Of a stretch of 64,000 nucleotides of DNA, positions 40,664-56,520 are shown one piece after another. Where the stretch lies: positions 62,001 to 126,000 of the forward strand of contig JAHCJW010000001.1 of the NCBI GenBank assembly GCA_026126125.1. The letters run 5' to 3'. The notes under the pieces were generated by a model, which searched no databases, had not been told where the DNA came from, and saw nothing but the letters and a program-made list of their open reading frames with translations. A program made the position numbers and the translations under genes. Numbering within the stretch: the first letter of the stretch is position 1; every line of letters starts with the position of its first letter. The DNA comes from Devosia sp. (GTDB lineage Bacteria > Pseudomonadota > Alphaproteobacteria > Rhizobiales > Devosiaceae).

Positions 40664-43585
40664 TCAGCGCGGGCGAGAGGCCCATTCGAGCAGGCTGGCC
40701 AGGCTCACAAAGGGAATGGCGGCGTGTTCGGTCAGCCCCGAGGCGCAGGTGGATACCGTCGAGACGCCCAACTCGCACCCCTTGGGAATGTCGTTGCCGA
40801 CGCGGCGCGTGGCGTGGGCATTCAGTTCAGGGATGAACAACCCCTTGTCCCCGGCATAGCCGCAACAGGTGATCGAGGACAATACCGCGATATCCTCGGC
40901 GCAGGCGCGCGCCACCGCCTCGGTTGCCGGCTGCTCGCCCAGACGCTGGGCCGAGCAGTTGTGGTGCACGGCGACGACCGGCAGTTTCTGCGTCAGCGCC
41001 AGGCGCGGCAGCACATGGGCGAGCAGGAATTGCGCGGAATCGGCCACCGCCGCCTCGCCGGGAAATTCCTTCAGATGCTTGGCGCAGGTCGAGGCATCGG
41101 TGACCACCTTCAGCCGCCCGGCGTCGGAGGAGGACGAGAGTTCGCGCTTGAGTTCGCCCCCGACCCGCGCCGCTTCCTCGGGAAAGCCCTTGGACTGGAA
41201 TGGCTGGCCGCAGCATTGGCCGGTCAGATGCTCGGGCATGACGACGTCGTAGCCGGCGCGCTCGAGCAGGGCCAGCATGGCGTCAGGCGTCGAGAGCAGA
41301 TCATGGTCGGTTTTCGGCGCGCCGAACATGCGGCTGGGGCAGGCGGGAAAATAGACGATCTGCTCGCGCCCCGTCTGGGTAATGGGCACGGGAAAGCCGC
41401 TCTTGCGCGGGTCCTGGCGATTGTCGCGCAGCTTGGGTGCGCCGCTGCCGTGATGGAGGGCGCGGGACAGGCGCGGCACGCGCTTGCCGGTGGCGCGGCG
41501 CGCCGTTTCGGTGATGGCCTCGATGGCGGGGGCGGGGATGATGGTGCGGGCCGCATCGGCCAGCGCCACGCCACCGCGCATGAACCGCTCGAGACTGCCG
41601 CGATGGTCGGCGGCAAAGCGCGCCACCGAATGGGCGGTGGCGCCGCGGCGGCGAGCACGCTCGCCGATGATCATGGTGCCGGTCTCGATGCCCACCGGGC
41701 AGCGCAGCGAGCACAGATTGCAGGCGGCGCAGGTGTCGAGGCCAGCATATTGGAAATCGGCCTCGAACCGGGCGAGGCGCGCCGGGTCCTCGCCGGTATG
41801 CCGGAGCCGGGCGCGTTCGCGGGTCACGGCGATGCGCTGGCGCGGGGTCAGCGTCATGTGGTGGCTGGGGCAGGCCGGCTCGCAGAAACCGCATTCGATG
41901 CACAGATCGACCAATTCGTCGGCCAGCGGCATCACCTTGAGGTTCTTGACGTGAATTTTGGCGTCGTCATTGAGCAGCACGCCGGGATTGAGCAGGCGCT
42001 CGGGATCGAAAGCCGCCTTGATGGCGCGCATGATCGCATAGGCCTTGGCGCCCCATTCGGCCTCGACGAAGGGCGCGATGGCGCGTCCGGTGCCGTGCTC
42101 GGCCTTGAGCGAGCCGCCATAGCGCAGCGACACCAGCTGGCTCAGTTCCTGGTTGAAGACGTCGAATTTTTCCGCCGCGCCGGGCTTGGAAAAATCATCG
42201 CCCATCTGGAAATGCAGATTGCCGGCGAGGGCATGGCCAAAGATCACCGCATCGGCATAGCCGTGATCGTCGAGCAAAGCCCGCAGGTCGATGACGAAAT
42301 CGGCCAGGCGCTCGATGGGGGCGGCGACGTCCTCGGTGAGCATGATGCTGCCCTTGGGGCGGGCGGCCCCGGCCGAGGTGAAAAAGCCCTTGCGGATATC
42401 CCACAGGGCGTGGCTGCGGTGTTCGTCGGTGGAAAGCTCGACATGGGTAGCGCCATGGCGGGCGAGCAGCGCCGCGGTCTTTTCCACCTCGGCGGCCAGC
42501 GTCGCCGCGTCGGGCGCGGTCACGTCGATCAACACGGCCGGCGAATTGTCGGTGAGCCAGGGCAGGAGCGGGGCCATCGGCGCCAGATGCTCCACCGTCG
42601 CCAGCGCCCGGCGCTCGATATATTCGGCCGCCGTCACTCCGGTGGTCACCTGCACCCCGCCATTGGCCATTTCGATAATGGCGCGGCCGGCCGATTGCGG
42701 ATCGGGGAAGGGGATGAGCCCGGTGGCCTTGAAGGGGTGTTCGGGCACGGTGTTGTAGGTCACCTCGGAGACGAAGCCGAGCGTGCCTTCCGAGCCGACC
42801 ATCAGGTGGATGAGAATGTCGAGTGGGTCGTGGTAATCGACCAGGGCATTGAGCGAATAGCCGACCGTATTCTTGATCCTGTATTTGTGGCGGATGAGGG
42901 CGGTCAGCTCGGCGTCGGCCATGATGTCGTGGTGGAGGCGGTGGAGTTCCTCCAGCATGCCGGCGTGGCTGCGCCGGAAGGCAGCGCAGCTTTCCGCGTC
43001 GCCGCTGTCGAGCGTCGTGCCGTCGGTGAGCACGATGCGCAGCCGCGCCATGGTGTGATAGGTGTTCTGGGCCACCCCGCAGCACATGCCGGACGAGTTG
43101 TTGTTGACCACGCCGCCGATCTTGCAGGTCGCCTGGCTGGCCGGATCGGGGCCGATCTTGCGGTTGTGCGGCTTGAGCGCGCGATTGGCTTCGGCGACGA
43201 TGATCGCCGGCCCGAGGGTGATCCGGTCGGCGCCGGGATGGATATCGAGCTTGCGCCAGCCATCACCGAGGACGGCGAGGACGCCATCGGTTACCGCCTG
43301 GCCCGAAAGCGAGGTGCCGGCGGCGCGAAAAGTGACCGGCAGACCCTCGGCGCGGGCGGCCTTGAACACTGCGCGCACGTCCTCCTCGGAATTGACGAAG
43401 ACCACCACAGCCGGGATCAGCCGGTAAGAACTGGCGTCCCCGCTCCAGGCATAGGTCATCAGCGGATCGGTATGGATATTGCCGCGGATCTGGCCGCGCA
43501 GGCGCGCGGCAACGCGCTCGCCGGCGGCGAGGCGCTGAGAATCGGGGGCGGTCGGTTGAAGCGAGAAGAAAGGGGCGTGCTGCAT
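40664..43585 (-). CDS. FAD-binding and Fe-S oxidoreductase (D-lactate dehydrogenase-like, fused)
   Basis: A 973-residue multidomain flavo-iron-sulfur dehydrogenase. Residues about 50-270 form the FAD-binding PCMH domain (VTFRAAGTSLSGQAVTDGVL and NNNSSGMCCG). About 300-540 is the FAD-oxidase C-terminal domain. Two [4Fe-4S] motifs follow: CIECGFCEPACP near 605 and TCAACNLCSLRCP near 650. The C-terminal section has two CCG-type cysteine-rich parts (CCGQPF and SITCCGYAGDKGLF). This is the one-chain layout of quinone-linked D-lactate/D-2-hydroxyacid dehydrogenases (Dld-II, YdiJ-like). It probably reduces ubiquinone. The LysR gene stands 69 bases upstream on the same strand. Confidence 0.88.
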   Translation of the reverse strand: MQHAPFFSLQPTAPDSQRLAAGERVAARLRGQIRGNIHTDPLMTYAWSGDASSYRLIPAVVVFVNSEEDVRAVFKAARAEGLPVTFRAAGTSLSGQAVTDGVLAVLGDGWRKLDIHPGADRITLGPAIIVAEANRALKPHNRKIGPDPASQATCKIGGVVNNNSSGMCCGVAQNTYHTMARLRIVLTDGTTLDSGDAESCAAFRRSHAGMLEELHRLHHDIMADAELTALIRHKYRIKNTVGYSLNALVDYHDPLDILIHLMVGSEGTLGFVSEVTYNTVPEHPFKATGLIPFPDPQSAGRAIIEMANGGVQVTTGVTAAEYIERRALATVEHLAPMAPLLPWLTDNSPAVLIDVTAPDAATLAAEVEKTAALLARHGATHVELSTDEHRSHALWDIRKGFFTSAGAARPKGSIMLTEDVAAPIERLADFVIDLRALLDDHGYADAVIFGHALAGNLHFQMGDDFSKPGAAEKFDVFNQELSQLVSLRYGGSLKAEHGTGRAIAPFVEAEWGAKAYAIMRAIKAAFDPERLLNPGVLLNDDAKIHVKNLKVMPLADELVDLCIECGFCEPACPSHHMTLTPRQRIAVTRERARLRHTGEDPARLARFEADFQYAGLDTCAACNLCSLRCPVGIETGTMIIGERARRRGATAHSVARFAADHRGSLERFMRGGVALADAARTIIPAPAIEAITETARRATGKRVPRLSRALHHGSGAPKLRDNRQDPRKSGFPVPITQTGREQIVYFPACPSRMFGAPKTDHDLLSTPDAMLALLERAGYDVVMPEHLTGQCCGQPFQSKGFPEEAARVGGELKRELSSSSDAGRLKVVTDASTCAKHLKEFPGEAAVADSAQFLLAHVLPRLALTQKLPVVAVHHNCSAQRLGEQPATEAVARACAEDIAVLSSITCCGYAGDKGLFIPELNAHATRRVGNDIPKGCELGVSTVSTCASGLTEHAAIPFVSLASLLEWASRPR

Positions 43586-43654: not shown

Positions 43655-44578
43655 TTATTTTGCTGGCGGAAAGGCGCGGGCGGCCGCTTGCCGGGTCCGC
43701 TCTATCAGCGGCTCGATCCGCTTCTCCCCGCGCCGCTCCTTGAGCACATGGATGCCGACGAGAAACTGCGTTGCCTCGTCCAGCACCTCCAATTGGCGCA
43801 GGCCGAGGGCTTCGAAATGTTCGCGCATGACGTGGGAGTGGGGAAGCACCGCCTCGGTGGCGAGGGTATAATCGACGCAGGCGGCCAGCGAGTTGGAGCC
43901 AAAGACAAAATCGGTCTGCTCAAACAGCGCCTTCATGCGCGAGCGCCAGCGATTGGGATCGAAAAACCGCTGGTGCCGGCTTTCCGGCGGCGTGCTGGTC
44001 ACCATGGGGAAGTGCTCGATCTCCTCGCGCTGGCGCGGTTGGCCCAAAAGGGGATGGCCCGCGCGGACGAAATAGCCGTTATGCACCTCGGTGAGCGGAA
44101 TGAAATCGGTCATGACGGCGGGATTGAGTTCCTTGGTTTCATGCCCGAGGAACAGGGCGATGTCGCCGGACAGCAATTGGTCGAGCAGGTGGAATTGATG
44201 CCCGAGGCTGATCTGGACCGGTGAGCCGGGAAATTCGCGCTGATAGTCAAGGACCATGTCCTTGAGGAACAGGCTCCACCACGAATAGCCCGTGCCGATG
44301 GCCAATCCCTGCTCCATGTCGCGCTTCTGGTCGGCGATGCTCGACAGGGTGTTGTCATAGAGCCGCTGCATCAGCCGCGCATTTTCATAGAGCGTTTCCC
44401 CGTAACGGGTGAGGCGCACCCCGCGCGAGGAGCGCTCGAACAGCGGCGCGCCGATACTCTCCTCGAGCTTGCGCATATTGATGGTCAAGGTGGGCTGGGT
44501 GATCAGCAGCGCCTTGGCGCCGCCGCTGAGCGTGCCGGCATCGGCAACGGCCAGAAATTGGGAAAGCAATTTGTCCAC
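43655..44578 (-). CDS. LysR-family transcriptional regulator
   Basis: A 307-residue LysR regulator. The N-terminal winged helix starts MDKLLSQFLAVADAGTLSGG, with ALLITQPTLTINMRKLEESI as the recognition helix and LFERSSRGVRLTRYGETLYE following (residues about 25-75). The effector domain occupies about 90-300. Unusually for the family it is encoded on the same strand as, not divergent from, the downstream flavo-dehydrogenase. It might regulate that gene or the sugar ABC operon about 430 bases to its right. Confidence 0.9.
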   Translation of the reverse strand: MDKLLSQFLAVADAGTLSGGAKALLITQPTLTINMRKLEESIGAPLFERSSRGVRLTRYGETLYENARLMQRLYDNTLSSIADQKRDMEQGLAIGTGYSWWSLFLKDMVLDYQREFPGSPVQISLGHQFHLLDQLLSGDIALFLGHETKELNPAVMTDFIPLTEVHNGYFVRAGHPLLGQPRQREEIEHFPMVTSTPPESRHQRFFDPNRWRSRMKALFEQTDFVFGSNSLAACVDYTLATEAVLPHSHVMREHFEALGLRQLEVLDEATQFLVGIHVLKERRGEKRIEPLIERTRQAAARAFPPAK

Positions 44579-44792: not shown

Positions 44793-44830
44793 CCATACAA
44801 GGCAGATTGCTCGCTTCCTGTCTTGTATGG
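44793..44830. promoter_or_regulatory. Spaced inverted repeat in the ABC operon control region
   Basis: CCATACAAG (44793-44801) and CTTGTATGG (44822-44830): a perfect 9-base inverted repeat with a 20-base spacer. The TTGTATG half resembles the FCD-GntR half-sites at 5608 and 7194, so a second regulator of that class may bind, though no such gene lies nearby. Confidence 0.45.
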
Positions 44831-44836
44831 TAAAGG

Positions 44837-44852
44837 GTAACCGGCTGGTTAT
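44837..44852. promoter_or_regulatory. TetR-type operator candidate 1 (sugar ABC operon)
   Basis: GTAACCGGCTGGTTAT, nearly a perfect palindrome, immediately after the inverted repeat at 44793-44830. It matches the shared consensus GTAACY-N4-RGTKA seen three more times in this window. Confidence 0.55.
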
Positions 44853-44892
44853 TTAGGCTACGAAGTGGCGCCGAAATTCAACAGAACTGACG

Positions 44893-44937
44893 TTGACAAG
44901 AGGGATCAATTTCGCAACTTAGTAACTGGTTGGTGAT
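44893..44937 (+). promoter_or_regulatory. Promoter-like region and TetR-type operator candidate 2
   Basis: TTGACA (44893-44898) is a consensus -35 hexamer. The downstream -10 is poor (TAGTAA, with a long spacer), so start prediction is uncertain. GTAACTGGTTGGTGAT (44922-44937), related to candidate 1, covers the expected start-site zone, which would suit repression. Confidence 0.5.
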
Positions 44938-45011
44938 TTAGCGACGGGGAGGTCGCTCACTGCATTCCGAGCCGGATGTTCCGGAGCGGCCAAATTCATG
45001 GGAGGTTACAC

Positions 45012-46304
45012 ATGACATTTCGTATTGGACGCCGACAGTTCCTCATGGGCAGTTCGGCGCTTATGGCAGCCGGCGCTGTCGGAGCCGGCCCGGCCTGGGC
45101 CCAGGGCACCAATCTGCGCCTGATCTTCTGGGGCGGCCAGAACCGCGCCGACCGCACCTATGGCGTCGCCGATCTTTACCAGGCCGCCTCGGGCAATAGC
45201 GTCGAAGGCGAATTCCTGGCCTGGAATGATTACTGGCCCAAGCTGGCCACGCAGACCGCCGGCGGCAATGCGCCCGACATCATTCAGATGGACTATCGCT
45301 ATATCGTCGAGTACGCCAAGCGCAACGCCATTGCGCCGCTCGATGAGTTCGTCGGTGGCGCGCTTAATCTCGATGGTTTCGATCAGGACCAGCTCGATGG
45401 CGGCAAGGTCGATGGCAAGCTCTATGGCATTTCGCTGGGCGCCAATTCGGTGGCGACCCTGATTAACACCGTCGCCTTCAGTGAAGCGGGCGTGGAGCCG
45501 CCGAACCGCGACTGGACCTATGAAGACATCCTGACCAAGGGCGAGGCTTTCTCCAAGGCCAATGTCCGCGGCGGCATGAAGATGATGTCGGACGCTTCGG
45601 GCACCGAGCCGATGCTCGACAACTGGCTGCGCCAGAAGGGTCTCTCGCTCTATACCGCCGATGGCAAACTCGGCTTCGGCGCCGACGAGATGACCGAGTG
45701 GTTCAAGATGTGGAACGACTTCCGCGCCGCCGGCGTGATCGTCGCGCCCGACGCGCAGGCACTCGATACCGGCCCGCTCGAAACCACCATGCTCGTTGCC
45801 GGCAAGGCGGCCCTGATGCCGTCCAACTCCAACCAGCTCGTCGGCTTCCAGGCCCTGGTTCCCGATCGCCTCGACATGGTCGGCTATCCGCGTCTGGCTC
45901 CGGGCGTCGGCGGCGGTCACTATCGCAAGCCCTCGATGTTCTTCTCGGTGGGCGGCTCGTCCGCCAACAAGGAAGCTGCGGCCTCGTTCCTCAACTTCTT
46001 CATCTCCGATCCGGAAGCGGCCAAGATCCTGGGCGTCGAGCGCGGCATTCCGTGCCTGCCCGCCACCCGCGAGATCGTCGCTCCGACGCTCGACGAGGCC
46101 AATCAGATCGCGCTGAACTTCGTGGCCAATCTGGGTGACCTGCTCGGGCCGTTGCCGCCCTCCCCGCCGGCCGCTGCTGGCGAGATCGACATCTCGCTGC
46201 TGCGCACGCTGAGCCAGGAAGTGGCTTTCGGCGCCCGCTCGCCTGAAGATGCCGGTCCGTATTTCGTCAACGAAGCCACCGCCATCCTCAACCGGGCCAG
46301 CTAA
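45012..46304 (+). CDS. Sugar ABC transporter substrate-binding protein (CUT1), Tat-exported
   Basis: A 430-residue binding protein. The ATG at 45012 has GGGAGG eight bases upstream. A twin-arginine signal, RIGRRQFLMGSSALMAAGAV, stands at residues 4-23 with cleavage after PAWA, so export should use Tat. The mature protein begins LRLIFWGGQNRADRTYGVAD, and ADGKLGFGADEMTEWFKMWN fits the SBP_bac_1 fold. It is the first gene of an operon with two permeases, two oxidoreductases and an ATPase. The sugar is unknown. Tat export of a CUT1 binding protein is somewhat unusual but known in alphaproteobacteria. Confidence 0.92.
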   Translation: MTFRIGRRQFLMGSSALMAAGAVGAGPAWAQGTNLRLIFWGGQNRADRTYGVADLYQAASGNSVEGEFLAWNDYWPKLATQTAGGNAPDIIQMDYRYIVEYAKRNAIAPLDEFVGGALNLDGFDQDQLDGGKVDGKLYGISLGANSVATLINTVAFSEAGVEPPNRDWTYEDILTKGEAFSKANVRGGMKMMSDASGTEPMLDNWLRQKGLSLYTADGKLGFGADEMTEWFKMWNDFRAAGVIVAPDAQALDTGPLETTMLVAGKAALMPSNSNQLVGFQALVPDRLDMVGYPRLAPGVGGGHYRKPSMFFSVGGSSANKEAAASFLNFFISDPEAAKILGVERGIPCLPATREIVAPTLDEANQIALNFVANLGDLLGPLPPSPPAAAGEIDISLLRTLSQEVAFGARSPEDAGPYFVNEATAILNRAS

Positions 46305-46306
46305 GC

Positions 46307-47254
46307 ATGACCGCGCGCTCCTTCGAAACCGGCACTCCCGCGGGGGAGCGCGCGGGCAGTCCTTCGCTCTGGTCCCGCATCTGGCAGCAGGATGCCCCCG
46401 GCTATCTGTTCCTGCTGCCCTGGTTCATCGGTTTTTTCGGCCTCACGCTGGGGCCGATGATCTCTTCGCTCTATCTCAGCTTCACCCATTTCGACCTGTT
46501 GACCGCGCCGCGCTGGGCCGGCCTCGACAATTATGTCCGCATGTTCACCAATGATCCGAAGTTTTCCGCCTCGATGCGGGTGACCATGTTCTTCGTGATC
46601 TTCTCGGTGCCCTTGAAGCTCGCTTTCGCGCTCGGCGTCGCCCTGCTGCTCAATCGCGGCATGAAGGGGCTGCCGCTTTATCGCGCCCTGTTCTATCTGC
46701 CGAGCCTTTTGGGTGCTTCGGTCGCCATCGCCATTCTGTGGCGGCAGATCTTTGCCGGCGACGGCCTCGTGAACAAGTTCCTCGCTTTGTTCGGCATTAT
46801 CGGCCCGAGCTGGATTTCCAACCCCAATTATTCGTTGTGGACGCTGATCGTGCTGTCGATCTGGCAGTTCGGCTCGCCGATGATCATCTTCCTTGCCGGT
46901 CTGAGGCAGATCCCGCAGGACATGTATGAGGCCGCCTCCCTCGATGGCGCCAGCAAGTGGCGGCAGTTCTGGAAGATCACCCTGCCGCTGTTGACCCCGG
47001 TCGTTTTCTTCAACGCCATCATCCAGACCATCGAGGCGTTCAAGAGCTTCACCCCGGCCTTCATCATTTCGGGCGGCACCGGCAACCCGATCAACTCGAC
47101 CCTGTTCTACACGCTCTATCTCTATCAGGAGGCCTTCGGCTTCTTCCGCATGGGCTATGCCTCCGCCCTGGCCTGGGTGCTCCTGGCCCTCGTCGCCATC
47201 TTCACCGCCTTCTCGTTCCTCACCTCGAAATACTGGGTGCATTACGATGACTGA
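46307..47254 (+). CDS. Sugar ABC transporter permease (MalF/UgpA-type)
   Basis: A 315-residue permease with six helices; the first spans about residues 31-53 (GYLFLLPWFIGFFGLTLGPM). The EAA loop reads YEAASLDGASKWRQFWKITL at about residues 207-226. It starts two bases after the binding-protein stop and overlaps the next permease gene by eight bases. It forms the channel with the MalG-type partner and is driven by the MalK-type ATPase at 50250. Confidence 0.95.
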   Translation: MTARSFETGTPAGERAGSPSLWSRIWQQDAPGYLFLLPWFIGFFGLTLGPMISSLYLSFTHFDLLTAPRWAGLDNYVRMFTNDPKFSASMRVTMFFVIFSVPLKLAFALGVALLLNRGMKGLPLYRALFYLPSLLGASVAIAILWRQIFAGDGLVNKFLALFGIIGPSWISNPNYSLWTLIVLSIWQFGSPMIIFLAGLRQIPQDMYEAASLDGASKWRQFWKITLPLLTPVVFFNAIIQTIEAFKSFTPAFIISGGTGNPINSTLFYTLYLYQEAFGFFRMGYASALAWVLLALVAIFTAFSFLTSKYWVHYDD

Positions 47255-48131
47255 CGCGCCCATGAAACTGACCGTCGTCGGGGCGGAAACCCCGCTCTGG
47301 CGCAAGCGTGCGATTTCCATCCTCAGCCACGCGGCGCTGATCGGCGCCTCCATCCTGATGCTCTATCCGCTGTTGTGGATGCTGGCGGCCTCCTTCCGCC
47401 CGGAAAACGAGATCTTCACCTCGGCCAGCATCATTCCCTCGGAATGGAGCATCGACGCCTATTTCCGCGGCTGGAACGGCTTGCGCACCAGCTTCGGGGT
47501 GTTCTTCACCAACAGCTTCATCATCTCGATCCTGTCGGTGGTCGGCAATGTGCTCGCCTGTTCGCTGGCGGCCTTCGCCTTCGCGCGGCTGGAATTTCGC
47601 GGGCGCAGACTGTGGTTCGCGCTGATGCTGATGACGCTGATGCTGCCCTATCAGGTGACGCTGATCCCGCAATATGTGCTGTTCCGCCAGCTGGGCTGGG
47701 TCGATACCTTCCTGCCGCTGATCGTGCCGAAATTCCTCGCCGCCGATGCATTCTTCATCTTCCTCATGGTGCAGTTCTTCCGCGGCATTCCGCGCGAGCT
47801 GGACGAGGCGGCGATGATGGACGGCGCCGGGCCGTGGCGCATCTACTGGAAGATCATGCTGCCCCTGTCGACACCGGTTCTGGCCACGGCCGCCATCTTC
47901 ACCTTCATCTGGACCTGGGACGATTTCTTCGGCCCGCTGATCTATCTCAACCAGATGCGCGACTACACGGTGATGCTCGGCCTTCGCACCTTCACCGACT
48001 CGACCGGTACCTCCGATTATGGTGGGCTGTTCGCCATGAGCGTGCTCAGCCTGGTGCCGATCTTCCTGTTCTTCCTCGTCTTCCAGCGCATGCTCATCGA
48101 GGGCATCGCCACCACCGGTATGAAACGCTAA
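47247..48131 (+). CDS. Sugar ABC transporter permease (MalG/UgpE-type)
   Basis: A 294-residue permease; ATG at 47247 lies inside the end of the MalF-type gene. The first helix (ILSHAALIGASILMLYPLLW) is at about residues 26-45. The EAA loop reads LDEAAMMDGAGPWRIYWKIM at about residues 190-209. The last helix (MSVLSLVPIFLFFLVFQRML) is followed by the family ending EGIATTGMKR. It completes the transmembrane unit. Confidence 0.95.
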   Translation: MTDAPMKLTVVGAETPLWRKRAISILSHAALIGASILMLYPLLWMLAASFRPENEIFTSASIIPSEWSIDAYFRGWNGLRTSFGVFFTNSFIISILSVVGNVLACSLAAFAFARLEFRGRRLWFALMLMTLMLPYQVTLIPQYVLFRQLGWVDTFLPLIVPKFLAADAFFIFLMVQFFRGIPRELDEAAMMDGAGPWRIYWKIMLPLSTPVLATAAIFTFIWTWDDFFGPLIYLNQMRDYTVMLGLRTFTDSTGTSDYGGLFAMSVLSLVPIFLFFLVFQRMLIEGIATTGMKR

Positions 48132-48135
48132 CATT

Positions 48136-49155
48136 ATGTCGCAATTGAAATTTGCCGCCATCGGCATCAACCACGCTCACATCTATGGCCAGGTGGACTG
48201 CCTCAAGCGGGCCGGCGCCGAATTCGTCGCCTTCCACGCGGTGGAAGACGACCTCGCCAAGGCGTTCTCGGAAAAATATCCGGAAGCGCGGCGGGTCAGC
48301 GATCCAAAGGCCATTCTCGAAGACGAGAGCATCGCCATCGTCACCACCGCCGCCATTCCGGGCGACCGGGCAGCGATCGCCCTTAGCGCCATGCGCCACG
48401 GCAAGGATGTGCTCACCGACAAGCCGGGCATGACCACCTTCGCCCAGCTCGACGAGATCAAAAAGGTGCAGAAGGAAACCGGCCGTATCTTCTCGGTGCT
48501 GTATTCCGAGCATTTCGAGGTGCCGGCGGCGGTCGAAGCGGGCAATCTCATCGCCCAGGGCGCCATTGGCGAGGTGGTCAACACCGTCGGCCTCGGCCCC
48601 CATTCGCTGCGCCTCAACAACCGGCCCGACTGGTTTTTCACCCGCAATCGCTATGGCGGTATCCTGTGCGATATCGCCAGTCACCAGTTCGAGCAATTCC
48701 TGTTCTTTTCCAATGCCATGGATGGCGAGGTGGTGTCGGCGAGCGTGTTCAACCGCAACCATCCCCACCGCCCGGGCCTGCAGGATGTCGGCGATGCCCA
48801 TATGCGCACCGACAGGACCACGGGCTATATCCGCGTCGATTGGTTCACGCCCGAGGGCCTGCCGACCTGGGGCGACGGGCGCCTGACCATTCTGGGCACC
48901 GAGGGCTATATCGAGCTCAGGAAATATGTCGATATCGCCGGGCGTCCGGGAGAAAATCACCTGTTCCTCGTCGACAGGAAGGGCACCCGGCATATCGATT
49001 GCGCCAAGGTCGAGCTGCCCTTTGGCCGGCAATTTCTCGACGATGTGCGCAACCGCACCGAGACGGCCATGCCGCAGGAGCGGTGCTACAATGCCATGAA
49101 ACTGGCGCTGACCGCGCAGTCCATGGCCGAACAGGGTACGGAGTGGGCACAATGA
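48136..49155 (+). CDS. Gfo/Idh/MocA-family oxidoreductase
   Basis: A 339-residue NAD(P)-dependent oxidoreductase. The Rossmann start FAAIGINHAHIYGQVDCLKR is degenerate (G-I-N-H-A-H instead of GxGxxG), a pattern shared by a subfamily of sugar dehydrogenases. The family lysine is in DVLTDKPGMTTFAQL at about residue 96. The substrate-domain HS..W FF section SLRLNNRPDWFFTRNRYGGI and the DIASHQFEQFLFF helix carry the catalytic His candidate. It follows the permease by four bases and overlaps the next oxidoreductase by four. It probably oxidises a hydroxyl of the imported sugar or its keto derivative. Confidence 0.88.
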   Translation: MSQLKFAAIGINHAHIYGQVDCLKRAGAEFVAFHAVEDDLAKAFSEKYPEARRVSDPKAILEDESIAIVTTAAIPGDRAAIALSAMRHGKDVLTDKPGMTTFAQLDEIKKVQKETGRIFSVLYSEHFEVPAAVEAGNLIAQGAIGEVVNTVGLGPHSLRLNNRPDWFFTRNRYGGILCDIASHQFEQFLFFSNAMDGEVVSASVFNRNHPHRPGLQDVGDAHMRTDRTTGYIRVDWFTPEGLPTWGDGRLTILGTEGYIELRKYVDIAGRPGENHLFLVDRKGTRHIDCAKVELPFGRQFLDDVRNRTETAMPQERCYNAMKLALTAQSMAEQGTEWAQ

Positions 49156-50237
49156 ACCGGATCTACAACGTCGCTGTTGTCGGCGGCGGCATCGGCCGCA
49201 GCCATATTGTCGAGGGCTATCTGCCCAATGCCGACAAATTCAAGGTTCTGGCGGTTTGCGATCTCAATCCCGAGCGTCTGGAAACGCTGGGTGAGGAGTT
49301 CGGTGTCGAGCGGCGGGTGGCCGATTTCGACGATCTGCTGGCCATGGACGACATCGACGTCATCGATGTGTGCACCCCGCCGGGCGTGCATTTCTCCATG
49401 ATCATGGCGGCGCTCAAGGCCGGCAAGCATGTGGTGTGCGAGAAGCCGCTGGTCGGGTCACTGCGCGATGTCGACGCGGTCATGGCGCAGGAAAAGCTCT
49501 CCGCCGGCAAGCTGATGCCGGTGTTTCAATACCGCTTCGGCGACGGCATCGAGCAGGCCAAGGCCATCATCGATGCCGGCATAGCCGGCAAGCCCTTTGT
49601 CGGCACGGTGGAAACCATGTGGCGGCGGGAAGCGCCCTATTACGCCGTGCCCTGGCGCGGCAAGTGGGCGAGCGAACTGGGCGGCGTGCTGATGGGGCAT
49701 GCCATCCATCCGCACGATATCTTCACCTATCTGATGGGCGATATCTCGCGCGTTTTCGGCCGTGTCGCCACCCGGGTCAATCCGATCGAGGTGGAAGACA
49801 CCATCACCGCATCGCTGGAGATGAAGAGCGGCGCCCTGGCCAGTTTCACCGCCACGCTGGGCTCGTCGGATGAAATCAGCCGTATCCGGCTCTCATTTGA
49901 AAACGTCACCTTCGAAAGCGATCACGCGCCCTATAATCCGGGCAACAAGCCCTGGAAGATCCTGCCGCGCAATGACGAGACGGCGCACAAGATCGACAAG
50001 CTGCTGGCAAACTGGACGCATGTGCCGTCGCGCTTCCAGACCCAGATGGCGCGGTTTTACGATGCGCTCGAAGGCGACGCGCCGCTGCCCGTCACCAGCG
50101 CTGATTCGCGCCGCTCGCTCGAATTGGTGACCGCCTTCTATCATTCCTCGTCCACCCATGAGGACGTTGCCCTTCCGCTCGGACCGGACCATCCGCTCTA
50201 TGAGAGCTGGGTGCCCGCCGCCTTCCGACAGAGCTAG
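49152..50237 (+). CDS. Gfo/Idh/MocA-family oxidoreductase
   Basis: A 361-residue second member of the family. VAVVGGGIGRSHIVEGYLPN (residues 8-27) binds NAD(P), IDVIDVCTPPGVHFSMIM follows, and the catalytic lysine is in HVVCEKPLVGSLRDV at about residue 97. LGGVLMGHAIHPHDIFTYLM contains the His of the active site. The start overlaps the previous stop (ATGA). Together with its neighbour and the third member at 53261 it suggests a multi-step oxidation-reduction route, such as C3-keto formation and reduction of a glycoside or inositol. The exact reaction is not known. Confidence 0.9.
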   Translation: MNRIYNVAVVGGGIGRSHIVEGYLPNADKFKVLAVCDLNPERLETLGEEFGVERRVADFDDLLAMDDIDVIDVCTPPGVHFSMIMAALKAGKHVVCEKPLVGSLRDVDAVMAQEKLSAGKLMPVFQYRFGDGIEQAKAIIDAGIAGKPFVGTVETMWRREAPYYAVPWRGKWASELGGVLMGHAIHPHDIFTYLMGDISRVFGRVATRVNPIEVEDTITASLEMKSGALASFTATLGSSDEISRIRLSFENVTFESDHAPYNPGNKPWKILPRNDETAHKIDKLLANWTHVPSRFQTQMARFYDALEGDAPLPVTSADSRRSLELVTAFYHSSSTHEDVALPLGPDHPLYESWVPAAFRQS

Positions 50238-50249
50238 GAGATCCCGACC

Positions 50250-51305
<1,056 letters not shown>

Positions 51306-51387
51306 GAGCTTCCCCAATAAAGGGAGAATGAGCAATTGTGATCCTTCGCTCGCTATGCTTTGCAGGGCGTCGAGCGGAGGATTGTTC

Positions 51388-51951
51388 GTGTTTCAGATCA
51401 TTTCGGGCGATGGTGCGGTCATTGACTATCAGCGGGTCGGCAGCGGTCCTCTCGCCATTGTCGTTGCCTCGATGAAGCCCGACACGGTGGCGGCCCTGAC
51501 GCGGGCGCTGCTGCGCGGGTTTTCGGTCCTGCTCTATAATCCCGGCGGTCGTGACGATGCCGGGATCCTCGCCGATATCGCCGCGCTGGTCGCGGCGGAG
51601 GGCGGCGCGGCGTTTATCTTTGCCGCAGACGCCGCCAGCGTGCCGGCGCTGGAAGCCGCCGCCGCCCTGCCGCGAAACATTCGCGCGCTGGCGCTCTACC
51701 AGCCCCGGATCGATCCTCTCCGGCGCGCCGAAGCTCCGCCCCTCCATTGGCAGAACGCCATCATGCCGGTCTTGGTGCTCGATGGCGAAAAGGGGCCGGG
51801 AGATGGCGCGGCGCAAGCGGACTGGATGGCGGCAAGCCTGCACAATGGCGAACGGATTACCCTCGCCGATCAGGGCGTCGACTTCGATCCACAAATCATG
51901 GCGCCGCTGCTGACGGTGTTTTTCGAGATGGGCACGGTGCAGGTGCACTGA
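51388..51951 (+). CDS. Degenerate alpha/beta-hydrolase-like protein
   Basis: A 187-residue protein. I choose the GTG at 51388 because GGAGG stands seven bases before it; an ATG at 51328 has a poorly spaced site. The pattern VIDYQRVGSGPLAIVVASMK, LLYNPGGRDDAG, then AALPRNIRALALYQPRID copies an alpha/beta hydrolase, but the nucleophile elbow (normally G-x-S-x-G) reads FAADAAS and no Ser is at the turn. The fold is also short. It is probably not an active hydrolase. It follows the MalK-type gene in the same direction by about 80 bases. Confidence 0.6.
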   Translation: MFQIISGDGAVIDYQRVGSGPLAIVVASMKPDTVAALTRALLRGFSVLLYNPGGRDDAGILADIAALVAAEGGAAFIFAADAASVPALEAAAALPRNIRALALYQPRIDPLRRAEAPPLHWQNAIMPVLVLDGEKGPGDGAAQADWMAASLHNGERITLADQGVDFDPQIMAPLLTVFFEMGTVQVH

Positions 51952-51984
51952 GGGTCAGGGGGGCGGTATCAATTGTGACGCTTA

Positions 51985-52087
51985 AAGCGCGTCGCGTTTC
52001 TTTCAGGTTCGCTCCCTGCGCTTTAACCCTTTGTTTTTCCGCATGTCTTTGTCCCGAAACCGGCGCCATTTTCGGCAGACACGCTCT
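51985..52087 (+). repeat. Intergenic repeat copy C (full length)
   Basis: Same order as copy B (34239-34339): AGCGCGTCGCG, then TCGCTCCCTGCGCTTTAACC, CTTTGTTTTTCCGCATGTC, CCCGAAACCGG and a GCTCT ending. It lies between the hydrolase-like gene and tetR. It may act as a shared 3' end for the two convergent genes. Confidence 0.8.
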
Positions 52088-52093
52088 AGCCTC

Positions 52094-52786
52094 TCACCCG
52101 ATCGGCTTGGTCTTGAGATAGTCGAGCACCATCTGCACCGCGTGGGCTTCGCGTTCCTGCACCATGCTGACACTGGTCAGGTCGCGCTCGAAGATCACCG
52201 AGAGCGTGGCGGTATTGGAGACGTAGAAAAAGCCGAGCGCCGCCACCGAGATATAGAGTTGCACCGGGTCGACATCGCGACGAAAAATCCCGGCGGCATT
52301 GCCCCGCTCGATAATGGCGGCGATCTGCCCGACCAGGGGCGAGTGCAGCGCCTTGATGTCGGGCAAGGTTTTCAAAAACCGCGCATTTTCGATGTTTTCC
52401 GTGCCCAGAAGGCGGGGAAACCAGGGATTGGCGAGAAAATGCCGGAAGGTGAAGCGCACCAGCCGGTCCATGGCCTGTGCCGGGTCATATTGGTCGAGGC
52501 TCAGCGCCCGCTCACCCTGGCGGATCTCCTGGTAGGCGTCGAGCAATACGGCGCGGTAGAGATCCTCCTTGTTGCCGAAATAATGGTAGAGCAGGCGCTT
52601 ATTGGCGCCGGCCCGCTCGGCGATGGCGTCGACCCGCGCGCCTTCGAAACCGCGATCGGCGAATTCCACCCGTCCTGCCGCCAGAATCGAGGCTTTGGTC
52701 TTGGCCGAGTTGCGAGGCCGCCTTGCCGCTGCGGCGTCAGCCGCGCGTTTCGGCGCCGCCACCACGGGTGAAGAGGGCTCTGACAC
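52094..52786 (-). CDS. TetR-family transcriptional regulator
   Basis: A 230-residue TetR regulator. After a low-complexity Ala-rich N terminus (APKRAADAAAARRPRNSAKT) comes the helix-turn-helix FADRGFEGARVDAIAERAGANK (about residues 46-67) followed by RLLYHYFGNKEDLYRAV. The C-terminal ligand domain begins about residue 90. It is convergent with the sugar ABC operon and divergent from the 53261 gene. Four similar palindromes upstream of both operons make it the likely repressor of the whole island; the inducer should be the imported sugar or an early product. Confidence 0.88.
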   Translation of the reverse strand: MSEPSSPVVAAPKRAADAAAARRPRNSAKTKASILAAGRVEFADRGFEGARVDAIAERAGANKRLLYHYFGNKEDLYRAVLLDAYQEIRQGERALSLDQYDPAQAMDRLVRFTFRHFLANPWFPRLLGTENIENARFLKTLPDIKALHSPLVGQIAAIIERGNAAGIFRRDVDPVQLYISVAALGFFYVSNTATLSVIFERDLTSVSMVQEREAHAVQMVLDYLKTKPIG

Positions 52787-52898
52787 GTTTCGATACCGCC
52801 GGACTGAAGATGAGGATGGTGAGGGTGTTCACGAGGCAGATAACAGCACTGATCGGCCGGGTAAAGAACGGGGGCGGGTCGACATGGTTGAAGGCCAG
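52737..52898 (-). pseudogene. Remnant: C-terminal tail of a TctA-type transporter subunit
   Basis: On the minus strand, a frame ending at 52737 reads HVDPPPFFTRPISAVICLVN, then a hydrophobic helix ending SPAVSKRVRALFTRGGGAE. The 'FFTRPISAV' motif followed by one helix is the usual end of the large membrane subunit TctA of tripartite tricarboxylate transporters. The rest of that protein is not upstream. The last 50 bases overlap the start of tetR, so tetR and the transporter may once have been neighbours. Confidence 0.4.
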
Positions 52899-53045
52899 CC
52901 CGCGCCGCCGGGTGCGATAGAGCCCATGGCCTGGACGGTCCCCAGGTTCTGCATCGGCCATCCTCCCAAAAAACTGGTTCCGGCCCGCTCTCCTGGCCCC
53001 TTATCGATGAGCTTGCGATTGGGCTGACAGGGTGTCAAGTCAGAA

Positions 53046-53061
53046 GTAACCATGTGGTGAG
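53046..53061. promoter_or_regulatory. TetR-type operator candidate 3
   Basis: GTAACCATGTGGTGAG fits the GTAACY-N4-RGTKA pattern, most like candidate 2. It lies about 260 bases upstream of the tetR start and 200 bases before the oxidoreductase start. Confidence 0.45.
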
Positions 53062-53185
53062 CATGGACGGCTCCCCCGATGGCGGACAAACCCCGATTGC
53101 TGCCGCGGCTTTCGCCGAGAATCTTTCCCTGTTGCGGCGCGATAGGTGTGGCTTCGGGCCTGTCCCAAATCTCTTTTCCGCCCGC

Positions 53186-53231
53186 TTGACGGGGTCGATT
53201 GGATATGTGTAGTAAGTAACCAATCAGTTAC
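53186..53231 (+). promoter_or_regulatory. Promoter and TetR-type operator candidate 4
   Basis: TTGACG (53186-53191) and TAGTAA (53210-53215), 18 bases apart, resemble -35 and -10 hexamers. GTAACCAATCAGTTAC (53216-53231), with perfect 5-base arms GTAAC/GTTAC, lies directly after, where a repressor would block transcription of the downstream oxidoreductase operon. Confidence 0.55.
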
Positions 53232-53260
53232 AATGTTGCGCGGCCCTGGGAGGATTGAAA

Positions 53261-54412
53261 ATGGCGGAACAACGGATTGGCATCATCATGCACGGTGTCA
53301 CCGGCCGCATGGGGTATAATCAGCACCTGGTGCGCTCGATCCTGGCCATTCGCGATCAGGGGGGCATTGCCCTGGCCAATGGCGACCGGCTGGTGGTCGA
53401 TCCGATCATCGTCGGCCGCGACCGCGACAAGATCGAGCGGCTGGCCAAAAGGCATAATATCGCGCGCTGGGGCACCGATCTCGACGTCGCTCTCGCCAAT
53501 CCCGATGACGCGATCTTTTTCGATGCCGGCACGACGCTGATGCGCGCCGGCCTGCTGGAAAAGGCCCTGGCCGCCGGCAAGCATGTCTATTGCGAAAAGC
53601 CGACCTCCGACGATCTCGAGATCGCGGTAAACCTGGCGAAAACCGCTCGCGCCTCCGGCCTCAAGCACGGCGTGGTGCAGGACAAGCTGTTCCTGCCGGG
53701 CCTGTTGAAGCTCAAAATGCTGCGCGACAGCGGCTTTTTCGGCGACATCCTCTCGGTGCGCGGCGAATTCGGCTATTGGGTATTCGAGGGCGACTGGCAG
53801 AAAGCGCAGCGCCCGAGCTGGAACTATCGCAAGGGCGATGGCGGCGGCATCATTCTCGATATGCTGTGTCACTGGCGCTATGTGCTCGACAATCTCTTCG
53901 GCGAGGTCAAGGCGGTGTCGTGCCTCGGCGCCACCCATATCCCCAGCCGCGTCGATGAAAACGGCCAGCGCTACACGGCCGATACGGACGATGCCGCCTA
54001 TGCCACTTTCGAGCTGGAAGGCGGGGTGATCGCCCAGATCAATTCGAGCTGGACGACCCGCGTCCGCCGCGACGATCTCGTCACCTTCCATGTCGATGGC
54101 ACGCATGGCTCGGCCGTGGCGGGCCTGCACAAATGCTGGACCCAGCATCGGGTCAACACGCCCAAGCCGGTGTGGAACCCCGACCAGCCGCAGACCATGA
54201 ATTTCTTCAATGACTGGGAAGAGGTGCCGGACAATTGGCCGGCCGATAACGGCTTCAAGGTGCAGTGGGAAATGTTCCTGCGCCATGTGGCCGAAGATGC
54301 CGCCTGGCCTTATGGCCTCGAAGCGGGCGCCAAGGGCGTGCAATTGGCCGAACTGGGTCTCAAGAGCTGGGCCGAGCGCCGCTGGCTCGACGTGCCGAAG
54401 CTCGAATTTTGA
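53261..54412 (+). CDS. Gfo/Idh/MocA-family oxidoreductase
   Basis: A 383-residue third member of the family. The ATG at 53261 follows GGGAGG by seven bases. The nucleotide-binding start is IGIIMHGVTGRMGYNQHLVR (residues 6-25). The catalytic Lys is in HVYCEKPTSDDLEIAV at about residue 112. GGGIILDMLCHWRYVLDNLF contains the His. It is longer than the two paralogues and has a distinct central insert. It is the first gene of the DUF993/isomerase operon, just after the promoter with a TetR-type site. Confidence 0.9.
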   Translation: MAEQRIGIIMHGVTGRMGYNQHLVRSILAIRDQGGIALANGDRLVVDPIIVGRDRDKIERLAKRHNIARWGTDLDVALANPDDAIFFDAGTTLMRAGLLEKALAAGKHVYCEKPTSDDLEIAVNLAKTARASGLKHGVVQDKLFLPGLLKLKMLRDSGFFGDILSVRGEFGYWVFEGDWQKAQRPSWNYRKGDGGGIILDMLCHWRYVLDNLFGEVKAVSCLGATHIPSRVDENGQRYTADTDDAAYATFELEGGVIAQINSSWTTRVRRDDLVTFHVDGTHGSAVAGLHKCWTQHRVNTPKPVWNPDQPQTMNFFNDWEEVPDNWPADNGFKVQWEMFLRHVAEDAAWPYGLEAGAKGVQLAELGLKSWAERRWLDVPKLEF

Positions 54413-54418
54413 TCAAAA

Positions 54419-54520
54419 GTCCCCCTCTCCCAAGAGGAGAGGGGGACACCGCGTTTTGAGGCGCTCGATGCTCCCTTCTCCTCGCGTGGGAGAAGGTGGC
54501 GCACAGCGCCGGATGAGGGG
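54419..54520 (+). repeat. Palindromic intergenic repeat inside the DUF993 operon
   Basis: Two hairpins in tandem: GTCCCCCTCTCC / GGAGAGGGGGAC (54419-54430, 54436-54447) and CCTTCTCC / GGAGAAGG (54474-54481, 54489-54496), followed by GGTGGCGCACAGCGCCGGAT and GAGGGG. This CTCTCC...GGAGAAGG...GGATGAGGGG pattern recalls a dispersed palindromic element of alphaproteobacteria. Its GAGGGG end may serve as the ribosome site of the next gene. Confidence 0.65.
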
Positions 54521-54529
54521 TGCCCTTAA

Positions 54530-55699
54530 ATGCCGACCATCAACCTGCCCAATCCCGACCGCTCCATCAGCCCCTATACGCTGACCGGCGATCCCATTCC
54601 CTTCGTCAAGTTCAAGTCGACGGATTTTCCGCGCATCGCCTTTGCCGCCGCCCATGTCGTGGCCGATCCGCTGGCGGACAATGATCCCTGGCTCACCCCG
54701 GCCATCGACTGGGACAAGACCCTGGCCTTCCGGCACCGGCTGTGGGATCTGGGTCTCGGCGTCGCCGAAGCCATGGATACCGCCCAGCGCGGCATGGGGC
54801 TCACCTGGGAGGACGCCAAGGAACTGATCCGCCGCGCCCAGGTTGAAGCGCGCACGCGCGACGACAGCCTTATCGCCTATGGCGCCGGCACCGACCATCT
54901 CGCCCCCGGGCCCGAGGTGACGATCGACCAGATCATCGCCGCCTATGAGGAGCAGGTCGGCTTCGTCGAGGGCCAGGGCGGCCGCGTCATCCTCATGGCC
55001 AGCCGCGCCCTGGCCGCCGCCGCCAAAAGCCCGGACGACTATGCCCGCGTCTATGGCCGTATCCTCTCGCAGGTGCGGCAACCGGTCATCCTGCACTGGC
55101 TGGGTGAAATGTTCGATCCGGCCCTGCAAGGCTATTGGGGCAATATCGACCACGACGTGGCCATGGATGTGTGCCTCGACGTCATCGCCGCCAATGCCGA
55201 CAAGGTGGATGGCATCAAGATTTCCCTGCTCTCGGCGGAAAAGGAAATCGCCATGCGCCGCCGCCTGCCGGAATCGGTGAAAATGTATACCGGAGACGAC
55301 TTCAACTATGCCGAGTTGATCGCCGGCGACGACAAGGGCTATTCGCACGCGCTGCTGGGTATTTTCGACGCCATCGCTCCGGCGGCCTCGGCCGGTCTGG
55401 CTGCGCTCGGGCGCGGCAATAGCAACGCATTCTTTGACCTGCTCGAGCCCACCGTGCCGCTGAGCCGGCACATCTTTGCCGCCCCGACGCGCTTCTACAA
55501 GACCGGCGTGGTCTTCCTCGCCTATCTCAACGGGTTGCAGGATCATTTCGCCATGATTGGCGGCCAGCAATCGACCCGCTCGCTCCAGCATTTGAGCGAA
55601 CTCTTCCGCCTCGCCGACAAGGCGCGCGTGCTGGCCGATCCGGATCTGGCGACGCAAAGGATGCAGGCGGTTCTGGCCGTGCATGGAGTATGGGCATGA
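54530..55699 (+). CDS. DUF993 family protein (dihydrodipicolinate synthase-like)
   Basis: A 389-residue protein starting MPTINLPNPDRSISPYTLTG, recognised as DUF993. It is probably a TIM barrel: successive segments such as GGRVILMASRALAAAAKSPD, QPVILHWLGEMFDPALQGYW and ADKVDGIKISLLSAEKEIAM look like strand-helix pairs, and the lysine in GIKIS could be a Schiff-base residue as in the aldolase/DHDPS family. The reaction is unknown. It is the second gene of the operon, between a Gfo/Idh/MocA dehydrogenase and an isomerase, so it may cleave or dehydrate an oxidised sugar. The downstream gene overlaps by ten bases. Confidence 0.85.
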   Translation: MPTINLPNPDRSISPYTLTGDPIPFVKFKSTDFPRIAFAAAHVVADPLADNDPWLTPAIDWDKTLAFRHRLWDLGLGVAEAMDTAQRGMGLTWEDAKELIRRAQVEARTRDDSLIAYGAGTDHLAPGPEVTIDQIIAAYEEQVGFVEGQGGRVILMASRALAAAAKSPDDYARVYGRILSQVRQPVILHWLGEMFDPALQGYWGNIDHDVAMDVCLDVIAANADKVDGIKISLLSAEKEIAMRRRLPESVKMYTGDDFNYAELIAGDDKGYSHALLGIFDAIAPAASAGLAALGRGNSNAFFDLLEPTVPLSRHIFAAPTRFYKTGVVFLAYLNGLQDHFAMIGGQQSTRSLQHLSELFRLADKARVLADPDLATQRMQAVLAVHGVWA

Positions 55700-56520
55700 C
55701 GGCGCGCGGTATCTCGCTCAATCTCGCCACTACCCGCCAGCAATGGGGCTTTGCCGAAGCGGTCGATGGGTGCCTGCGCGCCGGCATCACCGCCATTTCG
55801 CCCTGGCGCGACCAGATTGCCGCCATCGGGCTCGATGAGGCGGCGCGCATTGTGCGCGCGAATGGATTGCAGGTCACCGGCGTCTGTCGCGGCGGCATGT
55901 TTCCGGCCGACAGCGCCGAAGGCCGGCAAAAGGCCATCGACGACAATCTGCGCGCCATCGACGAGGCCGCCGCGCTCAAGGCCGATTGCCTGGTGCTGGT
56001 GGTGGGCGGCCTGCCGGGCGGCTCGAAGGATATCGTCGGCGCCCGCCATATGGTGAGCGAGGGGATTGCCGCCATGCTGCCGCATGCGCGGGCCTCGGGC
56101 GTCAAAATCGCCATCGAGCCGCTGCATCCGATGTATGCCGCCGACCGCGCCTGCGTGAACACCATCGATCAGGCGCTCGACATCTGTGAAATGCTGGGTG
56201 AAACGGTCGGCGTCGCCATCGACGTCTATCACGTCTGGTGGGACCCCAATCTGGCCGGGGCCATCGCCCGCGCCGGCCGGATGAAGCGCATCTTCGCCCA
56301 CCATATCTGCGACTGGCTGGTGCCGACCAGGGACATGCTGCTCGATCGCGGCATGATGGGCGATGGGGTGATCGACCTGCCCGGCATTCGCAGACAAATC
56401 GAGGACGCCGGCTTTTTCGGCCCGCAGGAGGTCGAGATCTTTTCGCAGGACAATTGGTGGAAGCGGCCCGGCGACGAGGTGCTCGCCACCATCAAGGAGC
56501 GGGTGGCAACCGTCTGCTGA
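55690..56520 (+). CDS. Sugar phosphate isomerase/epimerase (AP-endonuclease 2-type TIM barrel)
   Basis: A 276-residue TIM-barrel protein. GISLNLATTRQQWGFAEAVD starts the barrel; ITAISPWRDQIAAIGLDEAA and VKIAIEPLHPMYAADRACVN give metal-binding Glu and His candidates; GVAIDVYHVWWDPNLAGAIA and QEVEIFSQDNWW give Asp/His/Glu later. This pattern (E-H/D-H-E) is that of IolE/IolI-like isomerases and dehydratases. The start (55690) lies inside the DUF993 gene end; an ATG six bases later is equally possible. A strong terminator follows immediately. Confidence 0.9.
   Translation: MGMTARGISLNLATTRQQWGFAEAVDGCLRAGITAISPWRDQIAAIGLDEAARIVRANGLQVTGVCRGGMFPADSAEGRQKAIDDNLRAIDEAAALKADCLVLVVGGLPGGSKDIVGARHMVSEGIAAMLPHARASGVKIAIEPLHPMYAADRACVNTIDQALDICEMLGETVGVAIDVYHVWWDPNLAGAIARAGRMKRIFAHHICDWLVPTRDMLLDRGMMGDGVIDLPGIRRQIEDAGFFGPQEVEIFSQDNWWKRPGDEVLATIKERVATVC

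Follow-up and report, generated by a model that had tools for sequence, protein, structure and literature searches.

The described systems closest in gene content to the locus reported here are inositol catabolism (iol), which uses a Gfo/Idh/MocA dehydrogenase with a PF01261 barrel; the 3-keto-glycoside pathways (ThuAB, levoglucosan Lgd and BT2158/BT2159); and the oxidative uronate pathway, made up of uronate dehydrogenase, galactarolactone cycloisomerase, KdgD and a semialdehyde dehydrogenase. Our locus lies in a 64,000-nucleotide stretch of DNA from Devosia sp. (GenBank assembly GCA_026126125.1, contig JAHCJW010000001.1, positions 62,001 to 126,000), here called the window, and contains a protein of the family DUF993, for which we found no published reaction under the names DUF993, PF06187 or pfam06187 in the literature searched, as far as titles and abstracts show. 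With iol it shares a Gfo/Idh/MocA dehydrogenase and a PF01261 barrel, but IolA, IolB, IolC and IolD are not among the Pfam or NCBIfam hits of the window cluster, and its scores are far below the iol cut-offs. With the 3-keto-glycoside pathways it has in common an ATP-binding cassette (ABC) importer, Gfo/Idh/MocA dehydrogenases and a TIM barrel, whereas DUF993 is central here. Analogues of parts of the oxidative uronate pathway (epimerase-fold, enolase-like and dihydrodipicolinate synthase (DHDPS)-fold proteins, and an aldehyde dehydrogenase) occur in some DUF993 loci, but none is in the window cluster, whose core is Gfo/Idh/MocA, DUF993 and a xylose-isomerase-like barrel. The same core is found in Sinorhizobium meliloti (SMc04130-SMc0413x), with solved structures for DUF993 (4dnh, which is SMc04132) and the TIM barrel (3ju2, which is SMc04130, and 3qc0), but we found no description of this system, and no function for its genes, in the literature searched. 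A cluster on pSymB of S. meliloti Ak57 has the same genes as SMc04130-SMc0413x.

Gene calls in the window are based on a listing of open reading frames (ORFs) and on Pfam and NCBIfam profile scans. The features are listed below; scores of operator-like sites, which have no strand, come from the matrix described further on.

44835-44854 (core 44837-44852), no strand: degenerate operator-like palindrome 1, before the importer operon; one mismatch; 15.3 bits, third in the window
44920-44939, no strand: degenerate operator-like palindrome 2, before the importer operon; 17.2 bits, second in the window
45012-46304, + strand: ABC solute-binding protein (SBP), CUT1 type; PF13416, E 1.1e-24
46307-47254, + strand: ABC permease 1; PF00528, E 1.3e-15
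47247-48131, + strand: ABC permease 2; PF00528, E 3e-19
48136-49155, + strand: GFO1, Gfo/Idh/MocA oxidoreductase; PF22725, E 1.1e-15; 3u3x, E 4.2e-146
49152-50237, + strand: GFO2, Gfo/Idh/MocA oxidoreductase; PF01408, E 3.1e-24; nearest solved structures 3q2k, 3q2i and DgpA 7xr9
50250-51305, + strand: MalK/UgpC-type ABC ATPase with OB/TOBE domains; PF00005, PF08402, PF17912
52094-52786, - strand: TetR-family regulator; PF00440, E 8e-17; PF17938, E 1.4e-41
53044-53063, no strand: weak extra operator-like site nearer the TetR start; 10.8 bits, fourth in the window, weak evidence
53214-53233 (core 53216-53231), no strand: operator-like palindrome before GFO3-DUF993-TIM; exact GTAAC-N6-GTTAC; 30.0 bits, best in the window
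53258-54412, + strand: GFO3, Gfo/Idh/MocA dehydrogenase; 3oqb, E 2e-182
54530-55699, + strand: DUF993 protein; PF06187, E 5.7e-188; 4dnh, E 4e-194
55690-56520, + strand: xylose-isomerase-like TIM barrel; PF01261, E 7.5e-40; 3qc0/3ju2, E about 1e-140

The unit consists of nine genes and the TetR gene, with one operator-like motif before each gene set. The importer operon (45012-51305) comprises the SBP, two permeases, GFO1, GFO2 and the ATPase, which scores above the NCBIfam cut-off for the UgpC subfamily (468 versus 432 bits). In the second operon, GFO3-DUF993-TIM (53258-56520), the DUF993 and TIM genes overlap by 10 bases, and GFO3 starts at either a TTG (53255) or an ATG (53258). No kinase family appears in the Pfam hits of the eleven island proteins scanned. 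We think there is an even chance that this unit imports a compound of the uronate or sugar-acid type and oxidises it to a keto sugar, which DUF993 then cleaves and of which the TIM barrel isomerises a fragment. Such a system would first oxidise its substrate and then, as predicted, split it by aldol cleavage, with no phosphorylation and by means of an uncharacterised branch of the DHDPS superfamily.

To place the locus among its relatives we compared it with the best 80 of at least 589 confirmed stretches (the close loci, which lean to Devosia and Rhizobium) and with a divergent set of 64 representatives, picked from 153 loci of more than 5 kb so that no two of their DUF993 proteins reach 78% identity. 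The palindrome GTAAC-N6-GTTAC, allowing up to one mismatch, has two matches against 0.18 expected, and two or more were seen in 1 of 100 shuffles. An operator matrix was built from the 33 distinct exact palindromes of the close loci, including the importer-side sites of loci L083 and L084; its control was mononucleotide shuffling. The four highest-scoring sites in the window precede the two operons or the TetR gene, and the fifth (6.3 bits) overlaps the best one. The exact palindrome is present in 67 of the 80 close loci, and of 57 related loci, 56 have a matrix site upstream of their SBP gene; in the exception, L094, where the SBP match is only 38% identical, the site is between the TetR and permease genes instead. 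Among 53 external representatives, outside the training set, the matrix found 40 sites in 19, compared with none in five dinucleotide shuffles. The sequence AGTAACYNNNNRGTTAC was found in 22 of 23 same-genus genomes searched (one copy in 21, two in one), always with a copy 1.2-1.4 kb from DUF993, and in none of the 14 other-genus genomes searched; its reversed control pattern gave 13 matches over 8 of 37 genomes. A TetR relative is within 12 kb of DUF993 in 76 close loci. The conserved palindrome before both operons is the pattern of a TetR-controlled regulon, and TetR is presumed to be a ligand-responsive repressor of both, binding GTAAC-N6-GTTAC. In various loci, operator-like sites also stand before genes for a tripartite-tricarboxylate-type (TTT) importer, a second TIM barrel, or DHDPS-like, epimerase-like, enolase-like or CoA-transferase proteins, and the CoA-type clusters of S. 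meliloti pSymA and Sagittula bear them too; one signature therefore runs through a modular system within part of the family. A preliminary description of this DNA, made from sequence alone, had named these genes, noted the lack of a sugar kinase and proposed that the two operons share operator-like sites. The ORF listing and profile scans place every named gene at its coordinates, and the Pfam and matrix results agree with the other two points.

DUF993 is likely to be a class I (Schiff-base) aldolase, a prediction from alignment and modelling. Its structure model (mean pLDDT 78.6, below 50 in loop 83-89) is a (beta/alpha)8 barrel that superposes on DHDPS in Foldseek. In HHalign, using a profile alignment of the window protein and 45 of the 64 representatives (those of 375-400 residues, with kdgD and L253 added), K230 in the GIKIS segment falls on the Schiff-base lysine of DapA on strand 6, and it is invariant across the 64 divergent sequences. 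The aldolase-like character and GIKIS lysine suggested by the preliminary description thus hold at the level of fold and position. DUF993 shares fold and lysine place with the DHDPS/N-acetylneuraminate lyase superfamily (DapA, NanA, KDG aldolase, 2-keto-3-deoxyarabonate (KDA) dehydratase and KdgD), but it is about 100 residues longer than DapA, about 14% identical to it, and forms its own Pfam family, unlike the superfamily's PF00701, which hmmscan did not report for it at E 0.001 despite the matching fold. In the DHDPS family proper, the GTTGE/GSTGE element and a tyrosine on strand 5 have roles in binding pyruvate or keto acids; DUF993 has neither, with DTAQR opposite GTTGE and H189 (in HWLG) opposite the tyrosine. 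We rejected DHDPS, NanA and KDG aldolase proper as assignments because of these replacements.

The main rival to cleavage is Schiff-base dehydration, in which DUF993 would dehydrate (or hydrate) a keto sugar acid in the manner of KDA dehydratase or KdgD, giving a keto-deoxy acid with no C-C cleavage at this step. Superfamily and lysine are shared, the Foldseek matches include 7c0d and 3fkk (KDA dehydratase) and 5hwj (keto-deoxygalactarate dehydratase), and in Palleronia both kdgD and a mandelate-racemase-family gene lie near the GFO3-DUF993-TIM triad. However, with DTAQR and H189 in the places of GTTGE and the strand-5 tyrosine, the usual recognition of 2-keto acids is unlikely, and the KdgD of locus L131 retains GGTGE and the tyrosine (VMVYN) while DUF993 does not. 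On balance we find a dehydratase unlikely.

Turning to the enzymes around the predicted aldolase, GFO1, GFO2 and GFO3 each have Rossmann and GFO_IDH_MocA C-terminal domains by Pfam; GFO3 passes narrowly at its N-terminus (24.1 bits, cut-off 24), with C-terminal matches of 87.6 and 54.0 bits. The family motif is the catalytic lysine of EKP plus an Asp/His pair, and K114, D201 and H205 of GFO3 are conserved in at least 97% of 31 sequences (the window and 30 of 37 cluster members of 340-430 amino acids). The E-D-H-E metal ligand set of xylose-isomerase-like isomerases and epimerases is represented in the TIM barrel by E143, D178, H205 and E249, conserved in at least 97% of 39 sequences (the window and 38 of 42 cluster members of 240-330 amino acids), and the barrel is presumed, from these residues, to be a metal-dependent isomerase or epimerase. 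GFO3 relatives include L-glucose/scyllo-inositol dehydrogenases, and those of GFO2 reach the glucuronide 3-dehydrogenase 8tdi; GFO1 relatives away from DUF993 gave no pointer to the substrate of the pathway.

These similarities bear on a 3-keto-glycoside pathway, in which Gfo/Idh/MocA enzymes oxidise C3 of a glycoside, the aglycone is eliminated by a TIM barrel or a Gfo/Idh-type lyase, and DUF993 acts only on the 3-keto sugar set free. The profiles of inositol dehydrogenase (113 bits) and levoglucosan dehydrogenase (90 bits) match GFO2, which also resembles DgpA besides reaching 8tdi, and locus L094 has a ThuA-family gene. All of these profile scores are far under the family cut-offs, though, and none of GFO1-GFO3 reaches the score of a glycoside 3-dehydrogenase family: GFO1 and GFO2 score 20-29 bits with the BT_2158 and BT_2159 profiles (cut-offs 750 and 650), for which GFO3 is not listed. 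No known keto-glycoside lyase was recognised among the scanned neighbours, and our search of the 3-dehydrogenase and keto-glycoside literature found no relevant paper. Several loci have TTT-type importers in place of the sugar importer, which suggests that the core acts on free acids too. Such a pathway seems to us improbable. The three dehydrogenases may nevertheless not form one chain, if GFO1 and GFO2 work on a glycoside ahead of GFO3.

An inositol or inosose route, with GFO3 making an inosose, DUF993 opening the ring to a 5-keto-hexose by retro-aldol reaction and the TIM barrel isomerising the product, is very unlikely. IolG profile matches of GFO1, GFO2 and GFO3 (41, 113 and 58 bits, cut-off 355), an IolO match of the TIM barrel (32 bits, cut-off 300) and the inositol dehydrogenases among GFO3 relatives speak for it, but this similarity is weak and family-wide, no further inositol-pathway gene was recognised among the annotated or scanned neighbours, and the SBP resembles presumed binders of pectin fragments, as described below.

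The linkage of the predicted aldolase with its two partner enzymes extends well beyond the window. With a limit of 3.5 kb from DUF993, relatives of both GFO3 and TIM are present in 72 of the 80 close loci (GFO3 in 78, TIM in 73) and in 37 of the 64 divergent representatives (GFO3 in 40, TIM in 44); this rule overlooks TIM genes displaced by other genes, as in L096 and L237. Neighbours were clustered from our own ORF calls and BLAST grouping, with some loci cut short by contig ends (for example, L044 and L183); those not in a named cluster were judged by eye from the beginnings of their sequences, and only some were scanned with Pfam. The VIA and Foldseek lists hold one domain type each, and absence from them does not exclude a family. 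The importer with GFO1 and GFO2 is a frequent but not universal neighbour. The preliminary description had staked its idea of a linked pathway on DUF993 occurring with Gfo/Idh/MocA enzymes and the isomerase in other genomes; across these loci it does, and the idea therefore stands, supported by the partner counts, the shared operator motif and a single, broad co-expression module in S. meliloti. Its view of an aldolase-like fold without a settled reaction also survives, whereas its specific inositol route is not supported.

DUF993 itself is a large family, with at least 8000 candidates matched, and the best relatives of the window protein among the matches listed are from Devosia. It is present in 36 of 37 genomes of the genus (the one miss is 62% complete), in 5 of 24 genomes from other families of the order, and in 25 of 289 genomes drawn from the class and 42 of 397 from the phylum (the window's own genome counted). 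It also occurs in 18 of 247 genomes (17 over the cut-off) from the phylum of an Acidobacteriaceae genome, with the centre genome G709 counted, and in none of 14 control genomes. Among 72,556 plasmid records, 147 have a match, including plasmids of Sinorhizobium, Rhizobium, Paraburkholderia, Arthrobacter and Streptomyces. A xylose pathway has been proposed for the plasmid pAO1. The Acidobacteriota draw (L212-L222, with longer stretches L229-L234) contains a distant branch (262-278 bits; 36% identity in L232) in which 6 of 11 members have one TGA inside the matched frame. On a Streptomyces yangpuensis plasmid (L129, 9998-11188), a divergent DUF993 (43%) lies between a mycofactocin-coupled short-chain dehydrogenase/reductase (SDR) and a monooxygenase with a type I polyketide synthase, and may there serve biosynthesis.

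In many rhizobial relatives the locus also contains an enolase-superfamily-like gene and a fourth Gfo/Idh/MocA gene, both lacking in the window. The former is near DUF993 in 21 of the 80 close and 17 of the 64 divergent loci; matches to the latter, many of them short, occur in 50 of 251 loci. The gene adjoining DUF993 in L167 (11053-12459) looks enolase-superfamily-like by eye, but neither Pfam nor NCBIfam gives a hit for it at E 0.001; the gene at its position in S. meliloti is annotated as mandelate racemase. The fourth Gfo/Idh/MocA protein of L171 (13038-14285, after TIM) has a cysteine-rich CxxCPHxxECPYF stretch that is, to our knowledge, unusual for the family.

In one S. meliloti study, SMc04132, SMc04133, SMc04135, SMc04138 and SMc04139 are listed in co-expression module 6 (Table 2), whose proteins fell on phaR deletion in a phbC strain and were seen in TY medium alone (PMC12542648). 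From product names and conserved gene order we infer that the last four are GFO3, SBP and GFO1/GFO2. In a computed network, SMc04134, apparently the TetR gene, is placed as a regulator (PMC11387232).

Several contexts favour uronates or sugar acids as the predicted substrate class. The SBP's nearest solved relative is YesO (5z6b, 205 bits, residues 30-428), followed by 2uvg/2uvh, which we take to be TogB; both presumably bind pectin fragments. DUF2264, which we assume belongs to GH154, is near 25 of the 80 close loci and also, in divergent orientation, beside the triad on an actinobacterial plasmid with glycerate kinase. Its nearest solved relatives are two glucuronate dehydratases, then a beta-galactosidase, and one report proposes in its abstract that GH154 enzymes are uronate dehydratases (PMC12269599). 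GFO1/GFO2 relatives elsewhere accompany gluconolactonase and TTT genes, and the Palleronia neighbours named above fit the same class. A single glycerate kinase, of MOFRL type, is encoded in the window's genome and lies on another contig. One locus, L092, has a methionine-synthase-like gene at an operator-like site. We considered 4-O-methylglucuronate as substrate, given methionine-synthase-like, PhyH and DUF2264 neighbours, and found no direct evidence for it.

In the pathway that we propose, TetR would release the operator-like sites on binding the substrate or a pathway product. GFO1 and GFO2 would act early, perhaps on a glycoside after import, and GFO3 would make a ketone using NAD(P). K230 would form an imine with this ketone, and the C-C bond beta to the imine would break in a retro-aldol reaction. 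More speculatively, a C6 2- or 5-keto acid might give two C3 pieces of the tartronate-semialdehyde, hydroxypyruvate or glyceraldehyde kind, which would account for the glycerate kinase genes near DUF993 in 10 of the 64 divergent loci. The TIM barrel would then probably isomerise one fragment.

A number of observations weigh against this pathway. Within this superfamily the lysine does not by itself tell an aldolase from a dehydratase, the structure model is of middling quality, and the proposed substrate, ligand and activity are predicted from sequence. Operator-like sites are lacking in 34 of the 53 external representatives, and the exact palindrome is missing in 13 of the 80 close loci, two of which (L038 and L044) are incomplete. 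In L254 the cluster around the palindrome contains a LacI gene, with no relative of TetR close by, and the binding by TetR therefore stays a presumption. DUF2264 is absent from the window's genome, no operator-like site at the threshold used precedes it in L050, and no glycerate kinase relative was found near any of the 80 closest loci. The co-expression in S. meliloti would fit joint control of the two operons but is weak support because module 6 is large and reflects PhaR. Neither GFO3 nor TIM is beside DUF993 in 17 of the 64 divergent loci by the 3.5-kb test; in 11 of these, SDR, GMC, aldehyde dehydrogenase, CoA-transferase, enoyl-CoA hydratase or glycerate kinase genes are there, and other loci keep TIM with SDR and acyl-CoA enzymes replacing GFO3. 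Plain sugar cleavage does not explain these SDR, GMC and CoA-enzyme clusters. Nonetheless, the reading that DUF993 has no catalytic role here and the operons merely share a regulator, for which these partnerless loci and the Streptomyces polyketide synthase neighbour could be cited, is the least credible of all, since the active-site-like residues are invariant over the 64 divergent sequences and DUF993 sits in a tight operon, its gene overlapping that of TIM, with both partners kept in most close loci.

A second kind of DUF993 cluster, seen in S. meliloti pSymA (L127, 3167-11143), L243, L246 and L254, carries the same palindromic motif with CoA-transferase, enoyl-CoA hydratase, acyl-CoA dehydrogenase, SDR, aldo/keto reductases, and Dabb or glycerate kinase. 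The cleavage model has no place that we could find for its CoA-transferase, enoyl-CoA hydratase and acyl-CoA dehydrogenase.

Other features of the window stand apart from the core. A short ORF downstream of the ATPase (51328-51951) has no Pfam or NCBIfam hit, and we left it out because, among 100 loci, many of which end before that position, a relative was seen at E 1e-20 only in L037 (63%). A LysR gene (43655-44578) beside a large FAD-linked oxidase gene with Fe-S and cysteine-rich domains (40664-43585) lies just outside the island and was excluded because relatives of both are located elsewhere in several Devosia loci. The 117-base gap between GFO3 and DUF993 (54413-54529) contains strong hairpins (fold z-score -5.4) and looks like a dispersed palindromic repeat within the operon, because its positions 58-110 have 21 further copies in the same genome at 78-90% identity; in some relatives (L092 and L171) the spacing is just a few bases.

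As a wider and more doubtful generalisation, DUF993 may found a class I aldolase family without pyruvate chemistry, splitting keto sugar acids supplied by Gfo/Idh/MocA or SDR enzymes. The operator signature would then mark a modular, kinase-free pathway that rhizobia, Devosia and further proteobacteria share, whose importers and front ends can be swapped and which serves uronic-acid-type compounds of plants or roots, possibly including methylated ones. The structure 4dnh was released in 2012, yet we found no reaction in print for DUF993; one paper that mentions 4DNH is unrelated to judge by its title. With the motif, the neighbours that recur and the comparison of active sites, the family now has a testable claim attached to it, that of keto sugar cleavage through K230. 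If true, it would add an aldolase that is not tied to pyruvate, and identifying the substrate would probably reveal a carbon source on which Devosia as a whole and many rhizobia draw.

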